DNA from: Halogeometricum rufum
GTDB lineage: Archaea > Halobacteriota > Halobacteria > Halobacteriales > Haloferacaceae
DNA: 64,000 bases
Reading direction: 5' to 3'
Assembly (NCBI RefSeq): GCF_900112175.1
Contig: NZ_FOYT01000001.1
Span: forward strand, 248,001-312,000
A program made the translations under genes and the position numbers. The number at the start of each line of letters is the position of its first letter. Positions within the stretch are counted from its first letter, which is position 1. This document shows positions 49,252-59,980 of this stretch, piece by piece. Under the pieces are notes generated by a model. It did not search any database and was not told where the DNA came from. It saw nothing but the letters and a program-made list of their open reading frames with translations.

Positions 49252-51438
49252 TCAGGCGGCGTCGCGGGCGGGCGCGAGGTTCCGTCGGCCGCCGAGGGTG
49301 ACGACGAACAGGACGCCGAGGCCGACGCCGTAGGCGGCCATCAGCGGAATCGTGACGAGGAACATCGAGACGATGCCCGCGGGGGTGAACAGGGCGGCGA
49401 ACGTCAGGATGCCGACGGTCACCTCGCGCCAGCGACCCCGGAGGGTCTGGTAGGTGACGCCCGCACCGTTGAGCAACAGCATCAGGATGGGGATGTCCGC
49501 GAGGATGCCGATGCCGCCCGTCGTGAAGAAGATGAGCCAGAAGAAGTCGGTGATGCGGTAGGAGATTATCATGTTCGCCTGCACCGCGTCGTTCACCAGC
49601 CACGAGATGACGCCGGGGGCGACGTAGAAGTACCCGAGGACGAACCCGCCGAGCAGTCCGAACACCAGCGACCCGGTCCAGAAGAAGACGGTGCGGCGGC
49701 GACGGCGGACGATCTGACGGTCCCGGAGGGCGGGCCACGCGTAGTACGCCACCACCGGGAGCGTGACGAGGACGGCGACGAGCGTCGAGAACTTCACCTG
49801 GAACAGCAGCGCCTCCATCGGGTGGAGGGCGACGACGTTCAGCACCTCCTCGGGTGTCACCGCGGCGGGGAGGCGGCCGAGGAACTGCTCGTACACCTCC
49901 TTGAAGCCGACGGTGTAGAGCCACGTGAACGTCCCCGCGAGGACGAGCATGAACAGCGCGACGATGCGGAACGCCTTCGACGTGACAGTCTCGAAGATGA
50001 ACGCGAGGTCCTTGTAGTAGCCGCCGATGTCGTCCTCGTCCGTCTCGCCGTCGGTGAGTTCGTCGAGGAACGTCCCGCCGGCGCGCGTCGCTCTGTCTTC
50101 TAGTTCGCCCTGCTGGTCGGCGTCACCGGCGTCGGCGTCGCCGTCAGACGCCTCGCGTTCTTCCTCCGCCTCGTCGAACCGGTCGACGATGGCCTGCGCC
50201 TTCTCCTTGTCGCCGTCGTCGAGTGCGTCGCCCGCGATGCCCATCGCCTCCTCCTCGCTCAGGTCGGCGAACACCTCCGGCGGCGCGGCCCGGACGCCCG
50301 CCGCGTCGAGTTCGCGCACGTCTATCTTCGAGGGGTCGCCGACGCCGCGTTCGAGCGGTCCGACGGACTCCTCGATGTCCTTGTAGACGGCGTAGCCGAG
50401 ACCGAGGAGCGCGAACGCGAGGGCACCGAGGACGGACCAGACGACGAGCGCCGTCTCCGGTGCGACGCCGAGGAGGCCCCCGAGTTCGGGGACGAAGTAG
50501 CTGCTCCCGACGCGGTCCAGGAGGGAGTTGACGGCCGCCGGCCCGCCGTAGGAGTAGTAGAGGTAGACGGCCGCGGCGCCGAGGGCGGTGCTCCCGGCGA
50601 CGAGGTTCCACCGCTTCCCGACGGCGGTCCGGAGGTCGATCTGTTCGCTGCTGCGACGGGCCGTGACGACGACCTTCGAGATGTAGAGGCTGATACCGTA
50701 CAGCGTCAGCACGGGGACGGCCCACAGAATCTGCGTGAACGGGTCCGGCGGCGTGAACATCGCGCCGGCGGCGAAGACGCCGAGCACCGCGTAGCGCCAC
50801 TGGTCGCGGAACGTCTCGTACGGGACGATTTCGGCGTACGACAGCAGCGTCATGACGAGCGGCAGTTGGCTCGCCAGCCCGAACGAGACTGTCAGGAGGA
50901 ACATGAACTGCGCCCACTTGACGATGGAGTACGTCGGCGCGAAGCCGATGTTCACCGTGTTCTGGGCGAGGAAGCGGAACGTGATGGGGAAGAAGAAGAC
51001 GTAGCCGTAGGCGACGCCGAGGCCGAACAGCGTCACCATCCCGACGACGATTAGCGCGAGTTGCCACCGGGGGACCGGCGACGACGGCCACAGGCCGCGC
51101 TCTCTGAGGGCGTCGCGGGAGAAGAAGATGAACACCGGCGCGGCGAGGATGAGTCCGGTCACGAGGCCTATCTTCGCCTGCAACAGCACCACGTCGAACG
51201 GCGTCTGCGCGATAATCTCGACCTGCTCGTTGACGGCCGCGTTCATGTTCCGTCTGGTGATGGCCTCGAGGAAGTCCCAGATGTACAGACGGAGCGCGTA
51301 GAACGTGCCGAGGAAGCCGACGAGGAAGACGATGAACACCTTTTGGAGGTCCTTCTGCGCCGCGCGGAGCATCGCACCGGCGGTCTCGCGACCGTCGTCG
51401 ATGGCGCGGCGGGTGTCCTCGTCGAGCGCGCTGGACAT
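49252..51438 (-). CDS. tatCt: TatCt: fused double TatC translocase subunit
   Basis: 728 residues from MSSALDEDTRRAIDDGRETA. Two TatC domains: the first (about 25-270) ends in FRDQWRYAVLGVFAAGAMFTPPDPFTQI, the second (about 480-728) with FFWTGSLVFGLLGGFVLGYFY, TDFFWLIFFTTGGIGILADIP and FTPAGIVSMFLVTIPL. Between them are two more hydrophobic segments and a long acidic hydrophilic linker (DRFDEAEEEREASDGDADAG). This double TatC is unique to haloarchaea, where most exported proteins fold before Tat export. An acidic linker between the two repeats is standard for the family. Confidence 0.95.
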   Translation of the reverse strand: MSSALDEDTRRAIDDGRETAGAMLRAAQKDLQKVFIVFLVGFLGTFYALRLYIWDFLEAITRRNMNAAVNEQVEIIAQTPFDVVLLQAKIGLVTGLILAAPVFIFFSRDALRERGLWPSSPVPRWQLALIVVGMVTLFGLGVAYGYVFFFPITFRFLAQNTVNIGFAPTYSIVKWAQFMFLLTVSFGLASQLPLVMTLLSYAEIVPYETFRDQWRYAVLGVFAAGAMFTPPDPFTQILWAVPVLTLYGISLYISKVVVTARRSSEQIDLRTAVGKRWNLVAGSTALGAAAVYLYYSYGGPAAVNSLLDRVGSSYFVPELGGLLGVAPETALVVWSVLGALAFALLGLGYAVYKDIEESVGPLERGVGDPSKIDVRELDAAGVRAAPPEVFADLSEEEAMGIAGDALDDGDKEKAQAIVDRFDEAEEEREASDGDADAGDADQQGELEDRATRAGGTFLDELTDGETDEDDIGGYYKDLAFIFETVTSKAFRIVALFMLVLAGTFTWLYTVGFKEVYEQFLGRLPAAVTPEEVLNVVALHPMEALLFQVKFSTLVAVLVTLPVVAYYAWPALRDRQIVRRRRRTVFFWTGSLVFGLLGGFVLGYFYVAPGVISWLVNDAVQANMIISYRITDFFWLIFFTTGGIGILADIPILMLLLNGAGVTYQTLRGRWREVTVGILTFAALFTPAGIVSMFLVTIPLMAAYGVGLGVLFVVTLGGRRNLAPARDAA

Positions 51439-51507
51439 ACCCGAGGAAAGCCATCTCGCGGTTATCAATCTTTTTCACCGCGTCGCCGCGCGCCCATCCG
51501 GAAAGGC

Positions 51508-51515
51508 CTATAAGA
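51508..51515 (+). promoter_or_regulatory. tatCo promoter
   Basis: CCTATAAG (51508-51515) lies about 28 bases before the ATG of tatCo at 51539, the spacing for leaderless transcription. The divergent tatCt starts at 51438, so both promoters share a 100-base region. Confidence 0.55.
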
Positions 51516-51538
51516 AGCGGGCAGAGAATCACTGATGA

Positions 51539-53155
51539 ATGGCCGACGATTCGGAGTCCGACCGTCCGTCATCGGACGCCGACGAGTCCGAGCGCGTCCC
51601 CTCGGACGACGCCGAGACGACCGAATCGTCCGACACGCCGACCGAGGACGCGTCTGCGCCGTCGGACGACACCGACAGCGACGCCTCCGCGGTCGACGAC
51701 GACGCGGACGATGGGGGCGACGCCGATGCGGACGATGGGGGCGACGCCGATGCGGACGATGGGGGCGACGCCGATGCGGACGACACCGACGCGGACGACA
51801 CCGCCGACGGACCCGCGGACGAAGGCGATAGCGACGCCGGCACCGACGGCGACGATACTGGCGCAGACGGCGACGATACCGGCATAGACGAGGATACCGG
51901 CATAGACGAGGATACCGGCACAGACGACGATATTGAGACGGACGGCGACGACGATACCGAGACGACGCCGCCGGAGTCGGAGCCGGACTCGGCCGACGAC
52001 CGGCCGGACGTCGCCGCCACCGCCGAGGGCCGCCCCGGCGCGGAGACCGACCCGGAGGACGTGGACGACCCCGTAGACGACGTGACGATGGAACGCGAGG
52101 GACTCGTCGAACCGCCGGACGAGTCGTCGACCGACGCCGACGCTGACGACGCCAGCGATTCCGACGACTCCGACGCGTCGACCGACGCCGACGACTCCGA
52201 CGCGGAGGACCTCTGGCCCGAGGACCACGCACCGCCGGAACCGAAGACGGCGGACGAACTCCGGTACGGCGGGGACGAGAACGGCGAGGCCGTCGCCGAC
52301 ACCGACGGCGGCGCGCCCACCGTCACCGGCGGGCCGACACCCGACCTCGGGGACGACGAACTCGACGACGGGATGTTCGGGGACGGCCCGGAGACCGACC
52401 AGGAGATGCCGCTGGCCGACCACATCGAGGAGATGGTCAACCGGCTGGCGGTGGTGTTCCTCGTCGGCGGCCTCGTCACGCTGGTTCTGTACCCCGGCGC
52501 CGACCTGGCGAATCAGGCGATGAACCTGAACCTCGTCAGTTCGACGGACGTCATCAACTTCCTCTGGAACAAGCACATCCCCGGCGCGCCGGAGATTGCC
52601 GAACGTCGCCCGCGCGTCTACGGTCCGCTCGAACTCGTCCTGACGGAACTGAAGGTGGCCGGACTGGCGGGCCTCGTCGTCGGCCTCCCGGTGTTCGTCT
52701 ACCAGACGTACCTGTTCATGCGCCCCGGTCTGTTCCCGCGGGAGCGACGCTACTACCTCGCCGCGGTGCCGACGAGCCTCGTCCTCGCGTTCGTCGGCAT
52801 CGCCTTCGCGCACTTCGTCGTCCTCCCGGCCATCTTCGCGTACTTCACGTCCTACACGCAGGGGACGGCGGTCATCGCGTTCGGCCTGAAGGAGACGTTC
52901 AACCTCATCCTCATCCTGATGGGCTACAACGCCATCATCTTCCAGATTCCGCTGTTCATCATGCTCGCCATCATGATGAACCTCGTCACCCGCGAGTGGC
53001 TGGTGGCCCGCCGGCTCATCTTCTGGGCCTCCTTCCTCGGGCTTGCGTTCTTCGTCAGCCCCGACCCCACTGGGATGGCCCCCATCATCATCGCCGCGAC
53101 GATGATAACGCTGTTCGAGGGGACGCTGTTCCTCCTGCGGTGGACCGGGAACTGA
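51539..53155 (+). CDS. tatCo: TatCo: single TatC with very long acidic N-terminal region
   Basis: 538 residues. Residues 1-280 are hydrophilic, almost all Asp, Glu, Ser, Thr, Gly and Ala, with short repeats (see separate entry). The TatC domain follows from MPLADHIEEMVNRLAVVFLV with GAPEIAERRPRVYGPLELV, VKLTELKVA-like GLAGLVVGLP, and the six hydrophobic segments ending GMAPIIIAATMITLFEG. TatCo recognises twin-arginine precursors and pairs with TatCt. The extension is far longer than in bacterial TatC and probably stays in the cytoplasm; its role is unknown. Confidence 0.93.
   Translation: MADDSESDRPSSDADESERVPSDDAETTESSDTPTEDASAPSDDTDSDASAVDDDADDGGDADADDGGDADADDGGDADADDTDADDTADGPADEGDSDAGTDGDDTGADGDDTGIDEDTGIDEDTGTDDDIETDGDDDTETTPPESEPDSADDRPDVAATAEGRPGAETDPEDVDDPVDDVTMEREGLVEPPDESSTDADADDASDSDDSDASTDADDSDAEDLWPEDHAPPEPKTADELRYGGDENGEAVADTDGGAPTVTGGPTPDLGDDELDDGMFGDGPETDQEMPLADHIEEMVNRLAVVFLVGGLVTLVLYPGADLANQAMNLNLVSSTDVINFLWNKHIPGAPEIAERRPRVYGPLELVLTELKVAGLAGLVVGLPVFVYQTYLFMRPGLFPRERRYYLAAVPTSLVLAFVGIAFAHFVVLPAIFAYFTSYTQGTAVIAFGLKETFNLILILMGYNAIIFQIPLFIMLAIMMNLVTREWLVARRLIFWASFLGLAFFVSPDPTGMAPIIIAATMITLFEGTLFLLRWTGN
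51704..51775 (+). repeat. Three 24-bp tandem repeats inside tatCo
   Basis: GCGGACGATGGGGGCGACGC followed by CGAT is repeated identically at 51704-51727, 51728-51751 and 51752-51775. It is in frame and encodes ADDGGDAD three times, starting at residue 56. The exact identity implies recent slippage. A second short repeat GATACCGGCATAGACGAG occurs near 51879-51914. Confidence 0.9.
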
Positions 53156-54792: not shown

Positions 54793-55692
54793 CTACTTCG
54801 TCGGGTAGTCGGTGGCGAACACGTCCTCGACGACGGGTTCGTCGTCGGCCTCGTCGGCCGCCGGACTGACGCTGCCGGTCTGGTAGCCGTGCAGGTCGAG
54901 GGTGACGTGGTCGAAGCCGAGGTCGGACAGTTCCTCGCGGACGGCGGCGACGAAGTCGGGGTTCAGCGCCGTCTCCAACTCCTCGGCGGCGACTTCGATG
55001 CGGGCGAGTCCGTCGTGGTCGCGGACGCGGAACTGCGAGAACCCCCACTGGCGGACGACGCGTTCGGCCCTCTCGACGCGCGTCAGGCGTTCCTCGGTCA
55101 CCTCGATGCCGGTCGGGATGCGCGAGGAGAGACAGGCCATCGACGGCTTGTCGGCGACCGAGAGTCCGTAGTCGTCGGCGATGGCGCGCACCTCCTCCTT
55201 GTCGATGTCGTGCGCGAGAAGCGGCGAGAGCACCTCTAGCTCCTCGACGGCGCGCAGTCCGGGCCGGTGGCCCTCGCCGGGGTCGGAGGCGTTCGTCCCG
55301 TCGCACACCGTCTCGATGCCGCGGTCGCGGGCGGCGTCGTACATCCGACCGAGGCGCATCGTCCGGCAGTGGTAACACCGGTCGCCGTCGTTCTCGACGA
55401 AGTCGGGGTTGTCGAGTTCGGAGAACTCCACGACTTCGTGACGGATGCCGATTTCGTCGGCGACGCGGCGAGCGTCGTCCAACTCCTCGGCGGGGAGCGT
55501 CTCTGACTTGGCCGTGCACGCGACGGCGTCGTCGCCGATGGCGTCGTGGGCGAGGGCGGCGACGACGGCGGAGTCGACGCCGCCGGAGAACGCGACGAGC
55601 ACCCCGTCCCGCTCTCCGAGCGACGCGCGCGCCGCCGCGGCCTTCTCGGTGAGCGTCGGGTCGGTGTCGGCCGGCGTGTCCGCGTCGGGCAT
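54793..55692 (-). CDS. larE: LarE-type ATP-dependent sacrificial sulfur transferase
   Basis: 299 residues from MPDADTPADTDPTLTEKAAA. PP-loop ATPase motif VAFSGGVDSAVVAAL (about 33-47), then GDRCYHCRTMRLGRM (CxxC) and DKPSMACLSSRIPTG. The CYHC pair plus the third Cys in SMACLSS suggests the cluster-forming LarE type. LarE inserts sulfur into the nickel-pincer cofactor of lactate racemase. LarA, LarB and LarC are absent from the window, so either they are elsewhere or this is a paralog for another sulfur transfer. Confidence 0.88.
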   Translation of the reverse strand: MPDADTPADTDPTLTEKAAAARASLGERDGVLVAFSGGVDSAVVAALAHDAIGDDAVACTAKSETLPAEELDDARRVADEIGIRHEVVEFSELDNPDFVENDGDRCYHCRTMRLGRMYDAARDRGIETVCDGTNASDPGEGHRPGLRAVEELEVLSPLLAHDIDKEEVRAIADDYGLSVADKPSMACLSSRIPTGIEVTEERLTRVERAERVVRQWGFSQFRVRDHDGLARIEVAAEELETALNPDFVAAVREELSDLGFDHVTLDLHGYQTGSVSPAADEADDEPVVEDVFATDYPTK

Positions 55693-56023
55693 GGTTCCCG
55701 TTTCCCGCGGAGCGGCAAAAGCGCGTTGTCCCCGGCCCGGGCCGCCGGGTTCGCTCGCACCGCCGCGCCGTCCCGCGTCGGTGCGCCTCCCGCCGCGCCG
55801 GCGTCTCGGCCCGCGGCCGCGAGACGCCCCACGACCACGAGACGCGCCGTGGCCACAAGACACAGGAACGCCACGACCGGACCTCGACGGGAGAGGTCCG
55901 ACGCTCGGCCGCACCCCGCCAGCACGGGCGTCCCGCCGTTCGGCACGCGCCGAGCGCCGTGTCTCCCCGCCGAACGGGGTTCGCGTCCGTGCTGACGGCG
56001 GCCCGCGTCGGGACACACGCACC
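55693..56023. other. 331-base GC-rich spacer without a recognisable gene
   Basis: Between larE (divergent) and the small-protein cassette. Mostly GC-rich, with no clear TATA box for either direction, no tRNA, and no convincing hairpin. It contains repeats of the type CACGACCACGAGACGCG...GACACAGG, which I cannot interpret. Short frames here are arginine-rich and not gene-like. Confidence 0.4.
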
Positions 56024-56137
56024 ATGACCCGAAGACAGCAGCCGACCGAACCGGACGAATCGCACGACGCGCCCGAGGGACTCGCCGGCGACTCCGCCGC
56101 GGCCGGCACCGCTGGCGCGCGAGGTGACCCGCGATGA
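56024..56137 (+). CDS. Possible 37-residue leading protein of an overlapping cassette
   Basis: MTRRQQPTEPDESHDAPEGL then AGDSAAAGTAGARGDPR. Very acidic and Pro/Ala/Gly-rich, with no fold signature. Its TGA (56135-56137) overlaps the ATG of the next gene by ATGA, the same four-base coupling seen further down the cassette. That architecture is the main support; by itself it could be chance. Confidence 0.35.
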   Translation: MTRRQQPTEPDESHDAPEGLAGDSAAAGTAGARGDPR

Positions 56138-56469
56138 CGGACGCCGACGACTGGGACGAGACGCCGGGGTCGGCGCTCGAACCGTTCCCGAGCGTCCGCG
56201 GCACGAGTCGGTTGCTCGGCGTGAACACCGAGGGCCAACCCGTCTACTACGACGAGGAGGCGCACGCCCGACGCGACGCGCCCGCGGACGCCGACGCCGA
56301 GGACTGGCGCGACGACCGACCGCTGGACGAGGACGCGACGGTCGGTGACCTCCTCGACGACGTCGAGGAGTCCGTCGGGTGGGACGAACTCACGGACTAC
56401 GCGAGGGACCACCTCCCCGGGATGGACGCCGACGACGGCGACGACGGGACGGGAGGTGACCGCACGTGA
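56134..56469 (+). CDS. Small acidic protein, paralog 1 of an overlapping cassette
   Basis: 111 residues. Shared core with the next gene: LLGVNTEGQPVYYDEEAHAR, then DATVGDLLDDVEESVGWDELTDYARDHLP. The PVYYDEE segment and the DVEESVGWDEL-DYARDH helix are almost identical to the paralog. No known domain; extremely acidic, no membrane segment. It overlaps both neighbours by four bases, so translation is coupled. Function unknown. Confidence 0.75.
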   Translation: MTDADDWDETPGSALEPFPSVRGTSRLLGVNTEGQPVYYDEEAHARRDAPADADAEDWRDDRPLDEDATVGDLLDDVEESVGWDELTDYARDHLPGMDADDGDDGTGGDRT

Positions 56470-56765
56470 GCGAGGACGGTCTGCAGAAACTCGGCGTCGA
56501 CGCCGAGGGGACGCCCGTCTACTACGACGCAGAACGACACAGTCGCGTCGACGGCCACGCCGGGTCCGAGAGCGTCGCCCGCGAGGACGGCGTCTCGCTG
56601 GAACAGTCCACCTCGGTCGGCCAACTGATTCGAGAGATAGAGGACGACGTCGGCTGGGACGAACTCTCCGACTACGCGCGGGACCACGCCCCCGAGGAGG
56701 GTCTCGACACCGAGGCCGACATCGGACGGAAGGGGTCGCCCGACGAGGACGGCGGCGCCGACTGA
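56466..56765 (+). CDS. Small acidic protein, paralog 2 of an overlapping cassette
   Basis: 99 residues from GTG 56466: MSEDGLQKLGVDAEGTPVYY, then STSVGQLIREIEDDVGWDELSDYARDHAP. Matches the upstream paralog in LGV-EG-PVYYD-E-H-R and VGWDEL-DYARDH, while the linker differs. Start overlaps the upstream stop (GTGA). It is followed 47 bases later by the FNR-type reductase gene on the same strand, so all may be one operon. Confidence 0.75.
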   Translation: MSEDGLQKLGVDAEGTPVYYDAERHSRVDGHAGSESVAREDGVSLEQSTSVGQLIREIEDDVGWDELSDYARDHAPEEGLDTEADIGRKGSPDEDGGAD

Positions 56766-56812: not shown

Positions 56813-57889
56813 ATGCCGACGGACCCTTCCATCGAGTCGGACGCCGAGGCGGCGGAGATAGAGAACCACGACGCCACCGTCGTCGACGTGACGACGATGG
56901 ACGAGGACCGCACGGACGAGATAGAGGCGGCGGTCGACACCCACCGCGAGGCGATACGCGAGCGACTCGACATCGAGGAGACGCTCGGTCCTCTCGGCGA
57001 GAGCGGCGACGCGTGGGACCGCGTGACCGCCGAACTGTCGGCACAGGGCGAGGAGGAACTCAGCGGGAAGCTGGAGGCGCTGAAGAAACGGCTGGAGCGG
57101 CCGTACCCGTCGCTCGTGAGCATCAGATTCGAGATCGGGTCGGCGGCCGACGACCCCGACGACACCTCTTTCGAGTTCGTCCCCGGCCAGTACGTGCGAA
57201 TCAGCTACCAGGACGAGGAACCGCGCGTCTACTCCATCGCCAGTTCCCCCAACCGCGACGGCGTCGAACTCTGCATCCGGCGGGTGCCGGGCGGCGAACT
57301 CACGCCGGACCTGTGCGAACGGGTCCAACCGGGCGACGACCTGTTCGTCCGCGGCCCGTACGGCGACGAACTCATGCTCTCGGAACCGTCCGACCGCGAC
57401 CTGGTGTTCGTGGCGACGGGCACCGGCGTCGCGCCGTTCAAGAGCATGATAGACTACGTCTTCGAGGAGGGGATGGACGAGTGCGACGGCGAGCGCCGGG
57501 ACGTCTGGCTGTTTCTGGGCTCCTCGTGGGAGGACCACCTCCCCTATCGGGAGGCGTTCCGCGCCCGCGACGACGAACGCGACAACTTCCACTTCGTCCC
57601 CACCCTGAGCCGCGAGAACTACCTCACCGACTGGACCGGCGAGACCGACTACGTGCAGTTCTGCCTCCTCAAGTACCTCGACAGCGAGGCGACGGACCTC
57701 GACGCCCTCCCCGACGAGTTCGCCGACTACGTGGACGAAGACCCCGTGGGCGACGTCGACGCCCGCATCGACCCCGACGCGATGGAGGTGTACGTCTGCG
57801 GCATCGGCGCGATGTGCGACCGGGTGACGAACGTCGTCGAGTCCGTCGGCGTCCGCGAGGAGTACCTCGACGTGGAGAGCTACGGCTAA
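56813..57889 (+). CDS. FAD/NAD(P)-binding oxidoreductase of the ferredoxin-reductase type
   Basis: 358 residues from MPTDPSIESDAEAAEIENHD. The first about 110 residues are a helical acidic N-terminal extension. Then FAD domain FEFVPGQYVRISYQDEEPRVYSIASSP (RxYS), GGELTPDLCERVQPGDDLFVRGPYG, and NAD(P) domain LVFVATGTGVAPFKSMIDYVFEE, ending EVYVCGIGAMCDRV. It moves electrons between NAD(P)H and a redox partner that is not visible here. Located just after the small-protein cassette. Confidence 0.9.
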   Translation: MPTDPSIESDAEAAEIENHDATVVDVTTMDEDRTDEIEAAVDTHREAIRERLDIEETLGPLGESGDAWDRVTAELSAQGEEELSGKLEALKKRLERPYPSLVSIRFEIGSAADDPDDTSFEFVPGQYVRISYQDEEPRVYSIASSPNRDGVELCIRRVPGGELTPDLCERVQPGDDLFVRGPYGDELMLSEPSDRDLVFVATGTGVAPFKSMIDYVFEEGMDECDGERRDVWLFLGSSWEDHLPYREAFRARDDERDNFHFVPTLSRENYLTDWTGETDYVQFCLLKYLDSEATDLDALPDEFADYVDEDPVGDVDARIDPDAMEVYVCGIGAMCDRVTNVVESVGVREEYLDVESYG

Positions 57890-57937: not shown

Positions 57938-59980
57938 ATGGAGTTCGAGGCTATCCCGGGCGTCGGGGAGAAGACGGCCGAAGCGCTGTCCCAACTCGAC
58001 GACGCCGAACGGGCGTTGGCCGACGGGGACGTGGCCGCTCTCGCCCGCGCCCCGGGCCTCACGGAGGGGCGCGCGGCCGCCATCGCGCGCGGGGCCATCC
58101 GCCGCAGGCACGACGACGACGGCGACTTCCTCGCCACGGACCGCGCCCGCGAGGTGTACCGCGACGTGCTCTCGTTGCTCCGCGAGCGAACCGTCACCGC
58201 CTACGCCGAGAAGCGACTGGAGACGTTCTACCCCACGGCCTCGGCGTCGCGCATCGAGGAGGTGCGCGCGTTCGCGGAGGCGGCCGTCGAACGCGACCCG
58301 GACCCGGCCGTCCTCGACGCACTCGACGGCGTGGCGTCGTTGGAACCCGCCGCGGGCATCCGCGTCCGCGAGCGCTGTCTCGCGACCGCCGACGCCGAAC
58401 GCTACGCCGCCGCCAAGGAGGCGTTCCCCGAACTGTCGGTCGAAGTCGTCGAGGACGCCCGCGGCCTCTCGGAACTCGCTCGCTCGTACGCCACCGTCGT
58501 CGCCCTCGACGAGGCGTTCGCGGGCGTGGACGTGGAGGGCGACGTGCGCGTGCGCCCCGACGCCGCCGACCACCCCGACGAGATAGTGCCGGAGCGAGTG
58601 CTGGCGTTCTTCGCGCAGAACCGCGAGCGAATCCGCGCCGCCGCGGACGTGCACGAGGCCGCCGGACTGGACGCGCCGTGTGACCTCGACCACCTCCGCG
58701 ACGCCCTCTCGCGACTGGACGACGACGGCACCATCGTCGGCGACGAGGAACTGGACCGCCTGACGAACGCCGTCGACGACGTCGACGCCGCCGTCTCGAC
58801 GGCCGAATCCGTCGCCAACGACCACCTCCGCGACGCCATCCGCGAACGCGACGTGACCATCGAGGGGACGGACTTCCTCTCGCTGGTCGAACAGGGCGCC
58901 CGCGTGGACTCGCTGCTGTCGCGGGAACTCGAAGACCAGTACGCCGACGCCGTCGCCACCGCCCGAGAGCATCTGGTCGAGTCGCTGTCGCTCCGCCCCG
59001 AGGAGGCGGACGTCGCCACGCGCGTCTTCTCGGACGACCCGTCGTTCCCCGTCGACTACGACGAGGAACTCCTCTCGCGCCTCCGCGCGGAACTGAAAGC
59101 CGGGCGCGACCGACGCGCCGTCCGACTGAAGCGCGAACTGGCCGCGGACCTCTCCGCCCTCCGCGACCCGGTCGGCGAGATGGTCTCGGACGCCCTCGAA
59201 CTGGACGTGGAACTTGCCGTCTCGCGGTTCGCCCGCGACTTCGACTGCTCGTTCCCGACGTTCGTCGCGGACGGCGGCGCGGCGACGACGGACGGCGGTG
59301 CGCGCGACGGCGATGGCGGTGCGCGCGGCGACGGCGCGGGCGGCGGGTTCGCCGTCGAGGCCGGGCGGTCCCCCCTGCTCGACGTGCCGTTCGAGGCGGC
59401 CGACCCGGTGGACTACGCCGTCTCGGGCGTCACCCTCCTCTCGGGCGTCAACTCCGGCGGGAAGACGTCGACGCTCGACCTGGTGGCTCTCGTCGTCGTC
59501 CTCGCGCAGATGGGCCTGCCCGTCCCCGCAGACCGCGTCGAACTCGAACGCTTCTCGGAACTGCACTACTACGCGAAGTCGCAAGGGACGCTGGACGCGG
59601 GGGCGTTCGAGAGCACCCTGCGGGACTTCCGCGAACTCGTCGACGGCGAGTCGAACCGTCTGGTCCTCGTGGACGAACTGGAGAGCATCACCGAACCCGG
59701 CGCGTCGGCGAAAATAATCGCCGGCATCCTCGAAGCCCTCGACGACCAGTCGGCGACGGCGGTGTTCGTCTCCCACCTCGCCAGCGAGATACGCGAGGCG
59801 GCCGGGTTCGACGTCGCCGTCGACGGCATCGAGGCGGTCGGACTGGCCGACGGCGAACTCGTCGTGAACCGCTCGCCCGTCAAGGACCACCTCGCGCGTT
59901 CGACGCCGGAACTCATCGTGGAGAAACTCGCGGGCGAGGACGGGTCGGGGTTCTACGACCGACTGCTGGAGAAGTTCTGA
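57938..59980 (+). CDS. mutS5: MutS-family ATPase with N-terminal helix-hairpin-helix
   Basis: 680 residues. The N-terminal region FEAIPGVGEKTAEALSQLDD and LARAPGLTEGRAAAIARGA is a pair of HhH DNA-binding motifs. Core and clamp helices follow, then the ATPase: Walker A LLSGVNSGGKTSTLDLVALV (about 500-519) and Walker B LVLVDELESITEPGASAKI (DELESITEPG in place of DEPGRGT), and switch VFVSHLASEI. No MutS I domain for mismatch recognition is evident, so it belongs to the MutS5/MutS2-like archaeal group, perhaps acting on branched DNA. Upstream of a membrane protein and the Orc1/Cdc6 gene. Confidence 0.92.
   Translation: MEFEAIPGVGEKTAEALSQLDDAERALADGDVAALARAPGLTEGRAAAIARGAIRRRHDDDGDFLATDRAREVYRDVLSLLRERTVTAYAEKRLETFYPTASASRIEEVRAFAEAAVERDPDPAVLDALDGVASLEPAAGIRVRERCLATADAERYAAAKEAFPELSVEVVEDARGLSELARSYATVVALDEAFAGVDVEGDVRVRPDAADHPDEIVPERVLAFFAQNRERIRAAADVHEAAGLDAPCDLDHLRDALSRLDDDGTIVGDEELDRLTNAVDDVDAAVSTAESVANDHLRDAIRERDVTIEGTDFLSLVEQGARVDSLLSRELEDQYADAVATAREHLVESLSLRPEEADVATRVFSDDPSFPVDYDEELLSRLRAELKAGRDRRAVRLKRELAADLSALRDPVGEMVSDALELDVELAVSRFARDFDCSFPTFVADGGAATTDGGARDGDGGARGDGAGGGFAVEAGRSPLLDVPFEAADPVDYAVSGVTLLSGVNSGGKTSTLDLVALVVVLAQMGLPVPADRVELERFSELHYYAKSQGTLDAGAFESTLRDFRELVDGESNRLVLVDELESITEPGASAKIIAGILEALDDQSATAVFVSHLASEIREAAGFDVAVDGIEAVGLADGELVVNRSPVKDHLARSTPELIVEKLAGEDGSGFYDRLLEKF

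Follow-up and report, generated by a model that had tools for sequence, protein, structure and literature searches.

Layout of the locus

The window, that is, the whole 64,000-nucleotide stretch of DNA analyzed here, comes from a genome of 4.19 Mb and carries three short, overlapping open reading frames on its forward strand (ORF1, ORF2, and ORF3, together called the cassette below). The cassette lies in an interval, hereafter the slot, that is bounded by larE and by a gene for a protein with helix-hairpin-helix and MutS_V domains (HHH-MutS); in the genus of the window the slot also holds the gene of an FNR-type reductase (FNR). The features are the following:

54793..55692, reverse strand: larE, divergent neighbor and slot edge (TIGR00268, 290.8 bits, cut-off 150)
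55853..55870, forward strand: CCACAAGA..CAGGAACG element, promoter candidate from its inferred role
56024..56137, forward strand: ORF1, ATG start, 37 aa, matching the N-terminus of the single-copy gene of the sister genome G002
56121..56127, forward strand: Shine-Dalgarno (SD)-like GAGGTGA within ORF1, 6 nt upstream of the ORF2 ATG
56134..56469, forward strand: ORF2, ATG start, 111 aa, acidic family member (profile E 3.8e-27)
56452..56459, forward strand: SD-like GGAGGTGA within ORF2, 6 nt upstream of the ORF3 GTG
56466..56765, forward strand: ORF3, GTG start, 99 aa, acidic paralog of ORF2 (profile E 1.6e-24)
56813..57889, forward strand: FNR-type reductase gene, a neighbor judged to lie outside the cassette
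57938..59980, forward strand: helix-hairpin-helix and MutS_V ATPase gene (HHH and MutS_V domains), the other slot edge

The initial annotation had described three small acidic proteins, two of them paralogs, joined by four-base overlaps and followed by an FNR-type frame. We found the overlaps as described, ATGA at 56134-56137 (ORF1/ORF2) and GTGA at 56466-56469 (ORF2/ORF3), and the FNR-type frame (NAD_binding_1, 7.4e-14, and FAD_binding_6, 3.2e-9, in Pfam) does start 47 nt 3' of the ORF3 stop codon. An overlap of four bases is in itself common among archaeal genes (PMC10666635). The description as acidic fits ORF2 (35 aspartates and glutamates versus 8 lysines and arginines) and ORF3 (28 versus 8), but not ORF1, where the count is only 7 versus 4. 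ORF2 and ORF3 are paralogs beyond chance similarity, with 40 of 83 aligned residues identical (48%) in BLASTP at an E-value of 1e-22. Elsewhere in the window, at 49252-53155, two long divergent frames stand back to back, which we take to encode TatC-like multi-membrane sequences.

Extent, motifs, and predicted structure of the protein family

ORF2 and ORF3 matched our family profile A7 with E-values of 3.8e-27 and 1.6e-24, values that are circular on their own because both sequences are among the rows of A7; support independent of it comes from the BLASTP match between the two and from a single-sequence match of ORF3 in G002 (E 2.0e-11). As far as we searched, the family is found in haloarchaea, to which all 11 named relatives belong. 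A 29-member profile detected members in 48 of 391 genomes of the class at E 0.001, and an earlier 11-member profile had detected them in 49 of the 391 at E 0.01. With the larger profile, only G000, G255, G257, and G413 among these genomes had two adjacent members, and eight others had two members each that lie far apart. Single-copy homologs are commoner than pairs, and most homologs in the slot are single genes. The initial annotation had named separate, unlinked homologs of known function as evidence that would count against its reading; single-copy homologs were indeed found, but for none of them a known function.

Members of the family share the motif LG....G.P.YY(D/N) and a C-terminal GW..L, followed in most of them by an aromatic-A-(R/K)..H stretch that five members from a single genus (g5) lack. 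Across distant haloarchaeal families, the G/P/YY and GW..L motifs are retained. In agreement with the initial annotation, to which no known family had come to mind, ORF1, ORF2, and ORF3 matched no Pfam or NCBIfam model, and none of nine further relatives searched against Pfam or six against NCBIfam scored above the cut-off; in alignment A1, two of the 11 sequences each had a single weak Pfam match (E 0.032 and 0.037). A profile search of PDB sequences returned one match, 4hr1, which was not significant (E 0.11), and word searches of one open library found no literature on the family, a result that does not establish its absence from print. The present analysis adds a haloarchaeal family that lacks a curated model but can be described by a set of motifs and by fixed positions in the genome.

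Structure prediction for ORF2 gave a low-confidence model with a disordered N-terminus followed by three strands and a helical hairpin (pLDDT 65, pTM 0.30), and that of a Natronococcus relative, also of low confidence, has four strands and two helices (pLDDT 61, pTM 0.43). Neither low-confidence model had a Foldseek match at E ≤ 0.001, and the best VIA Z was 4.6; no structural match was reliable.

Turnover of the slot and the origin of ORF1

Within the same family as the window genome, larE is present in 136 of the 148 genomes searched, the window genome included. We fetched the 5' flanks of larE from 80 of the 135 others, a sample lacking the greater part of one large genus and some other genomes. 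The HHH-MutS gene was present in 74 of these 80 flanks, and a slot homolog in 10 (G002, G008, G063, G071, G078, G086, G095, G102, G126, and G131); the larger profile again found 10, which with the window makes 11 of 81. For the family to which G257 belongs, where 50 of 57 genomes have larE, 40 further flanks yielded one slot member (G441). Together with G255, G257, and G413 this gives 4 of 43, a biased rate since those three were fetched because they had a match.

The family also holds other fixed positions, as its members lie near a crtI-like gene at 17 and near an aIF1A-like gene at 10 of 51 loci (L106-L156, with several loci per genome in places). At L116, L121, L136, L137, and L149-L153 the member lies directly 3' of the aIF1A-like gene, mostly with the crtI-like gene also near, and at L155 it lies beside topA. 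No functional tie of the family to larE, MutS, or FNR was found in this analysis.

Comparison of related genomes showed that the content of the slot changes while its edges stay. In the genus of the window the slot holds the array (in the window), a single gene of 118 aa (in G002), or no cassette at all (in G001, G003, and G004, where larE and FNR lie about 104 nt apart and a search of the genome found no family member). In the genus g79 we found a tandem pair in three genomes, a chimeric single gene in one, and an empty slot in one. The pairs overlap by 4 nt in G255 and G257 and are separated by a 2-nt gap in G413, the single gene of G441 joins the start of an A copy to the core of a B copy (L172, 441-743, larE-first orientation), and G308 has an empty slot and no family member was found in it. 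Across all these states in both genera the larE and HHH-MutS flanks are unmoved.

The family proteins evolve fast, several times above the flanking MutS-like protein, and mostly under purifying selection. By simple counting estimates, the between-genome dN/dS of cassette proteins was 0.26-0.71 in 10 of 12 comparisons: 0.61 for ORF2 against G002, 0.54, 0.59, 0.46, and 0.71 in g79, 0.26 in g11, 0.34 in g23, and 0.40, 0.39, and 0.29 in g5. A near-identical pair of g5 gave 0.95 on few changes, and ORF3 against G002 gave 1.14, for which reason constraint on ORF3 is possibly relaxed. Between the same genomes, HHH-MutS gave 0.06-0.24.

ORF1 had been listed as a third protein in its own right. This was not supported: in a search of five congeneric genomes its one meaningful match, apart from itself, was to the first residues of the single slot gene of G002 (E 3.8e-5, next best 0.245), with a local alignment score of 88 that was equaled by none of 2,000 shuffles (mean 27, maximum 49). 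As a relative of ORF2 it was rejected, since 307 of 2,000 shuffles reached its score, and its kinship is therefore traced through the G002 gene only. The distance from the start codon to the LLGV core is 93 nt (31 codons) in G002 versus 188 nt in the window; as these lengths differ by a number not divisible by three, ORF1 and ORF2 are in different frames. From the N-terminal match and this frame offset, ORF1 is probably a stranded remnant, the start of an older copy that has collapsed. Selection acting on the peptide encoded by ORF1 is weakly supported, given that its GC content by codon position (0.81/0.68/0.76, versus 0.78/0.47/0.92 in ORF2) does not follow the pattern of neighboring genes, as those of ORF2 and ORF3 do, and that the 12 sites at which it differs from G002 in 22 codons are divided 4/3/5 among the codon positions.

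Probable translational coupling and competing explanations

The SD-like motif before ORF2 and that before ORF3 each lie six nucleotides from the start codon and inside the preceding frame, and ORF1 has none. For the gene pairs of Haloferax volcanii tested in PMC6728339, downstream translation required translation of the upstream gene, by strict termination-reinitiation, and an SD often aided reinitiation but did not support de novo initiation; according to PMC10666635, coupling requires overlaps or very short gaps. By these published rules, applied to the overlaps, the SD motifs, and the 47-nt gap, coupling would be expected among ORF1, ORF2, and ORF3 but not with FNR, and ORF1 may feed ribosomes to both ORF2 and ORF3.

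Upstream of ORF1, the CCACAAGA..CAGGAACG element is a candidate for its promoter; an element of this kind also precedes the G071 slot gene, with weaker versions in G002 and G086. A strong hairpin is predicted at 55890-56023, 5' of ORF1 (-76.2 kcal/mol, z -2.3), and its counterpart in G002 (-80.1, z -3.6) has the same outer-stem sequence, GCCAGCACGGGCG; the hairpin in the window is possibly a 5'-UTR element. A conserved inverted repeat was considered as a genome-wide element and rejected, its exact pattern being present in none of five genomes, and the frequency of its half site in the window was not above that of shuffles.

Together, the locus is a real case of paralogs, probably coupled in translation, at a site of fast turnover. 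Our full model, which we hold to be narrowly the probable one, has tandem paralogs in a turnover slot, with ORF1 as leader, coupled translation, and joint assembly, independent of the reductase. In it, ORF2 and ORF3 are copies, arranged in tandem, of a gene belonging to an unnamed haloarchaeal family of acidic proteins of about 100 residues, and the interval between larE and HHH-MutS is a fixed accessory site at which copies are quickly gained, fused, and lost. ORF1, a remnant start whose core is gone, would now serve as a ribosome-entry cistron: ribosomes would start on ORF1, stop in ATGA and restart on ORF2, then stop in GTGA and restart on ORF3, and both paralogs would be made at a fixed ratio, as the overlaps, the SD motifs, and the published Haloferax work suggest. 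Acting independently of the reductase, the two proteins would be small adaptors that most likely assemble with one another or with a shared target. To judge from the low-confidence model, each would have a disordered N-terminus, then a small beta sheet, and at the C-terminus a helical hairpin bearing the conserved GW..L.

A heteromeric ORF2/ORF3 complex, which the initial annotation had suggested, is plausible, and a fair prior for it comes from H. volcanii, where the products of 253 of 560 gene pairs with spacings of -8 to +10 nt belong to one and the same complex (PMC10666635); the family as such does not need a heteromeric pair, since most of its slot homologs are single genes. A further proposal holds that the 37-codon start of the collapsed copy was kept as the only ribosome entry for two coupled, fast-evolving paralogs, haloarchaea not starting translation at internal SD sites, and that copies in this slot are duplicated, fused, and lost in the same way in separate haloarchaeal families. 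We put this forward tentatively, as something that may well not be so.

The history of the pair could also be read the other way around, with ORF2 and ORF3 as an ancient two-gene A/B module encoding an obligate heterodimer, and differential loss leaving A-only, B-only, and empty slots. Pairs do occur in the same slot and in the same order in two haloarchaeal families, and AU tests rejected neither an A-type clade (p 0.147) nor a B-type clade (p 0.325), but the best tree of 41 cores joins ORF3 to ORF2 and G002 (support 90/73), and ORF2 and ORF3 are 47% identical whereas the A and B copies of g79 share 25-33%. Since these identities fit separate duplications at the same slot better, we favor such duplications without certainty, the tree itself being unable to tell the two histories apart, and regard the ancient module as a possible but rather unlikely reading. 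It is doubtful that a dispensable gene was simply duplicated, with the copies now decaying or nearly neutral and their coupling a by-product of tandem duplication: the patchy presence with three empty sister genomes, the high dN/dS, and the loss of the core from ORF1 would fit, but ortholog dN/dS is mostly below 1, the G/P/YY and GW..L motifs are maintained across distant families, and g79 shows the same tandem layout. Rapid evolution and turnover at one fixed site would suit a conflict system that evolves fast, such as a pair of inhibitor or antitoxin-like type or a protein directed against viruses. We consider this improbable, as PADLOC matched none of the four proteins scanned, PHROGs gave no meaningful match (best E 0.14, judged by E-value alone), two scans of viral contigs confirmed no relative, and ORF3 had no match in the plasmid collection.

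The initial annotation had also proposed the paralogs as possible partners of the reductase, and adjacency on the same strand at 47 nt speaks for this, as does a count over 81 genomes (4 genomes with both FNR and the slot cassette, 6 with only FNR, 7 with only the cassette, and 64 with neither; p 0.026 in a one-sided Fisher test). At the level of genera, however, p rises to 0.135, and each partner occurs without the other. The FNR-type gene is rare, being found at E 1e-40 in 10 of 148 genomes of the same family, including all five of the window genus; in the five outside the genus it lies away from the slot, in G071 and G086 on a different contig, and no slot homolog outside the genus has an adjacent FNR. 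Conversely, three of the other four congeneric genomes (G001, G003, and G004) retain FNR in an otherwise empty slot. An AT-richer element about 30 nt 5' of the FNR ATG is conserved in G001-G004 and less well in the window, and its retention in sister genomes with and without the cassette suggests that FNR has its own promoter. We therefore judge a partnership with FNR unlikely, and a role of the paralogs as accessory subunits or electron-transfer partners of the enzyme highly improbable.

Likeness to two known domains was weighed. The GxPxYY(D/N) hairpin look and the three predicted strands recall WW domains (PF18507 and others), but only one scanned relative had a match, to WW_1, at 15.2 bits (cut-off 25, E 0.018), and we rejected membership; the tryptophan pattern that defines WW domains is absent. 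The topoisomerase I C-terminal repeat (Toprim_C_rpt, PF13368) came up because the model of one relative weakly resembled Mtb TopI in Foldseek, and through the one relative that adjoins topA. Homology was rejected, as the profile-profile comparison did not stand out from column shuffles, 35 of 100 of which scored as high (hhalign probability 0.17%, E 0.35), other hhalign modes likewise gave no support, there was no sequence-level family match, and PF13368 was not found in the window's own genome.

One close comparison is with the haloarchaeal termination-reinitiation pairs (PMC6728339, PMC10666635), which resemble the cassette in the 4-nt ATGA or GTGA overlaps and in the SD within the upstream frame; the cassette differs in that a leftover start of 37 aa, an unusual leader, precedes two paralogs. 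Like the fast-evolving archaeal "dark matter" genes of PMC4158269, the family is poorly characterized, narrowly spread, and fast-evolving, but those genes form islands, whereas the cassette occupies a fixed slot between conserved genes. The locus offers a small natural example on which to test how arrays of translationally coupled paralogs arise, collapse, and leave leader peptides behind.
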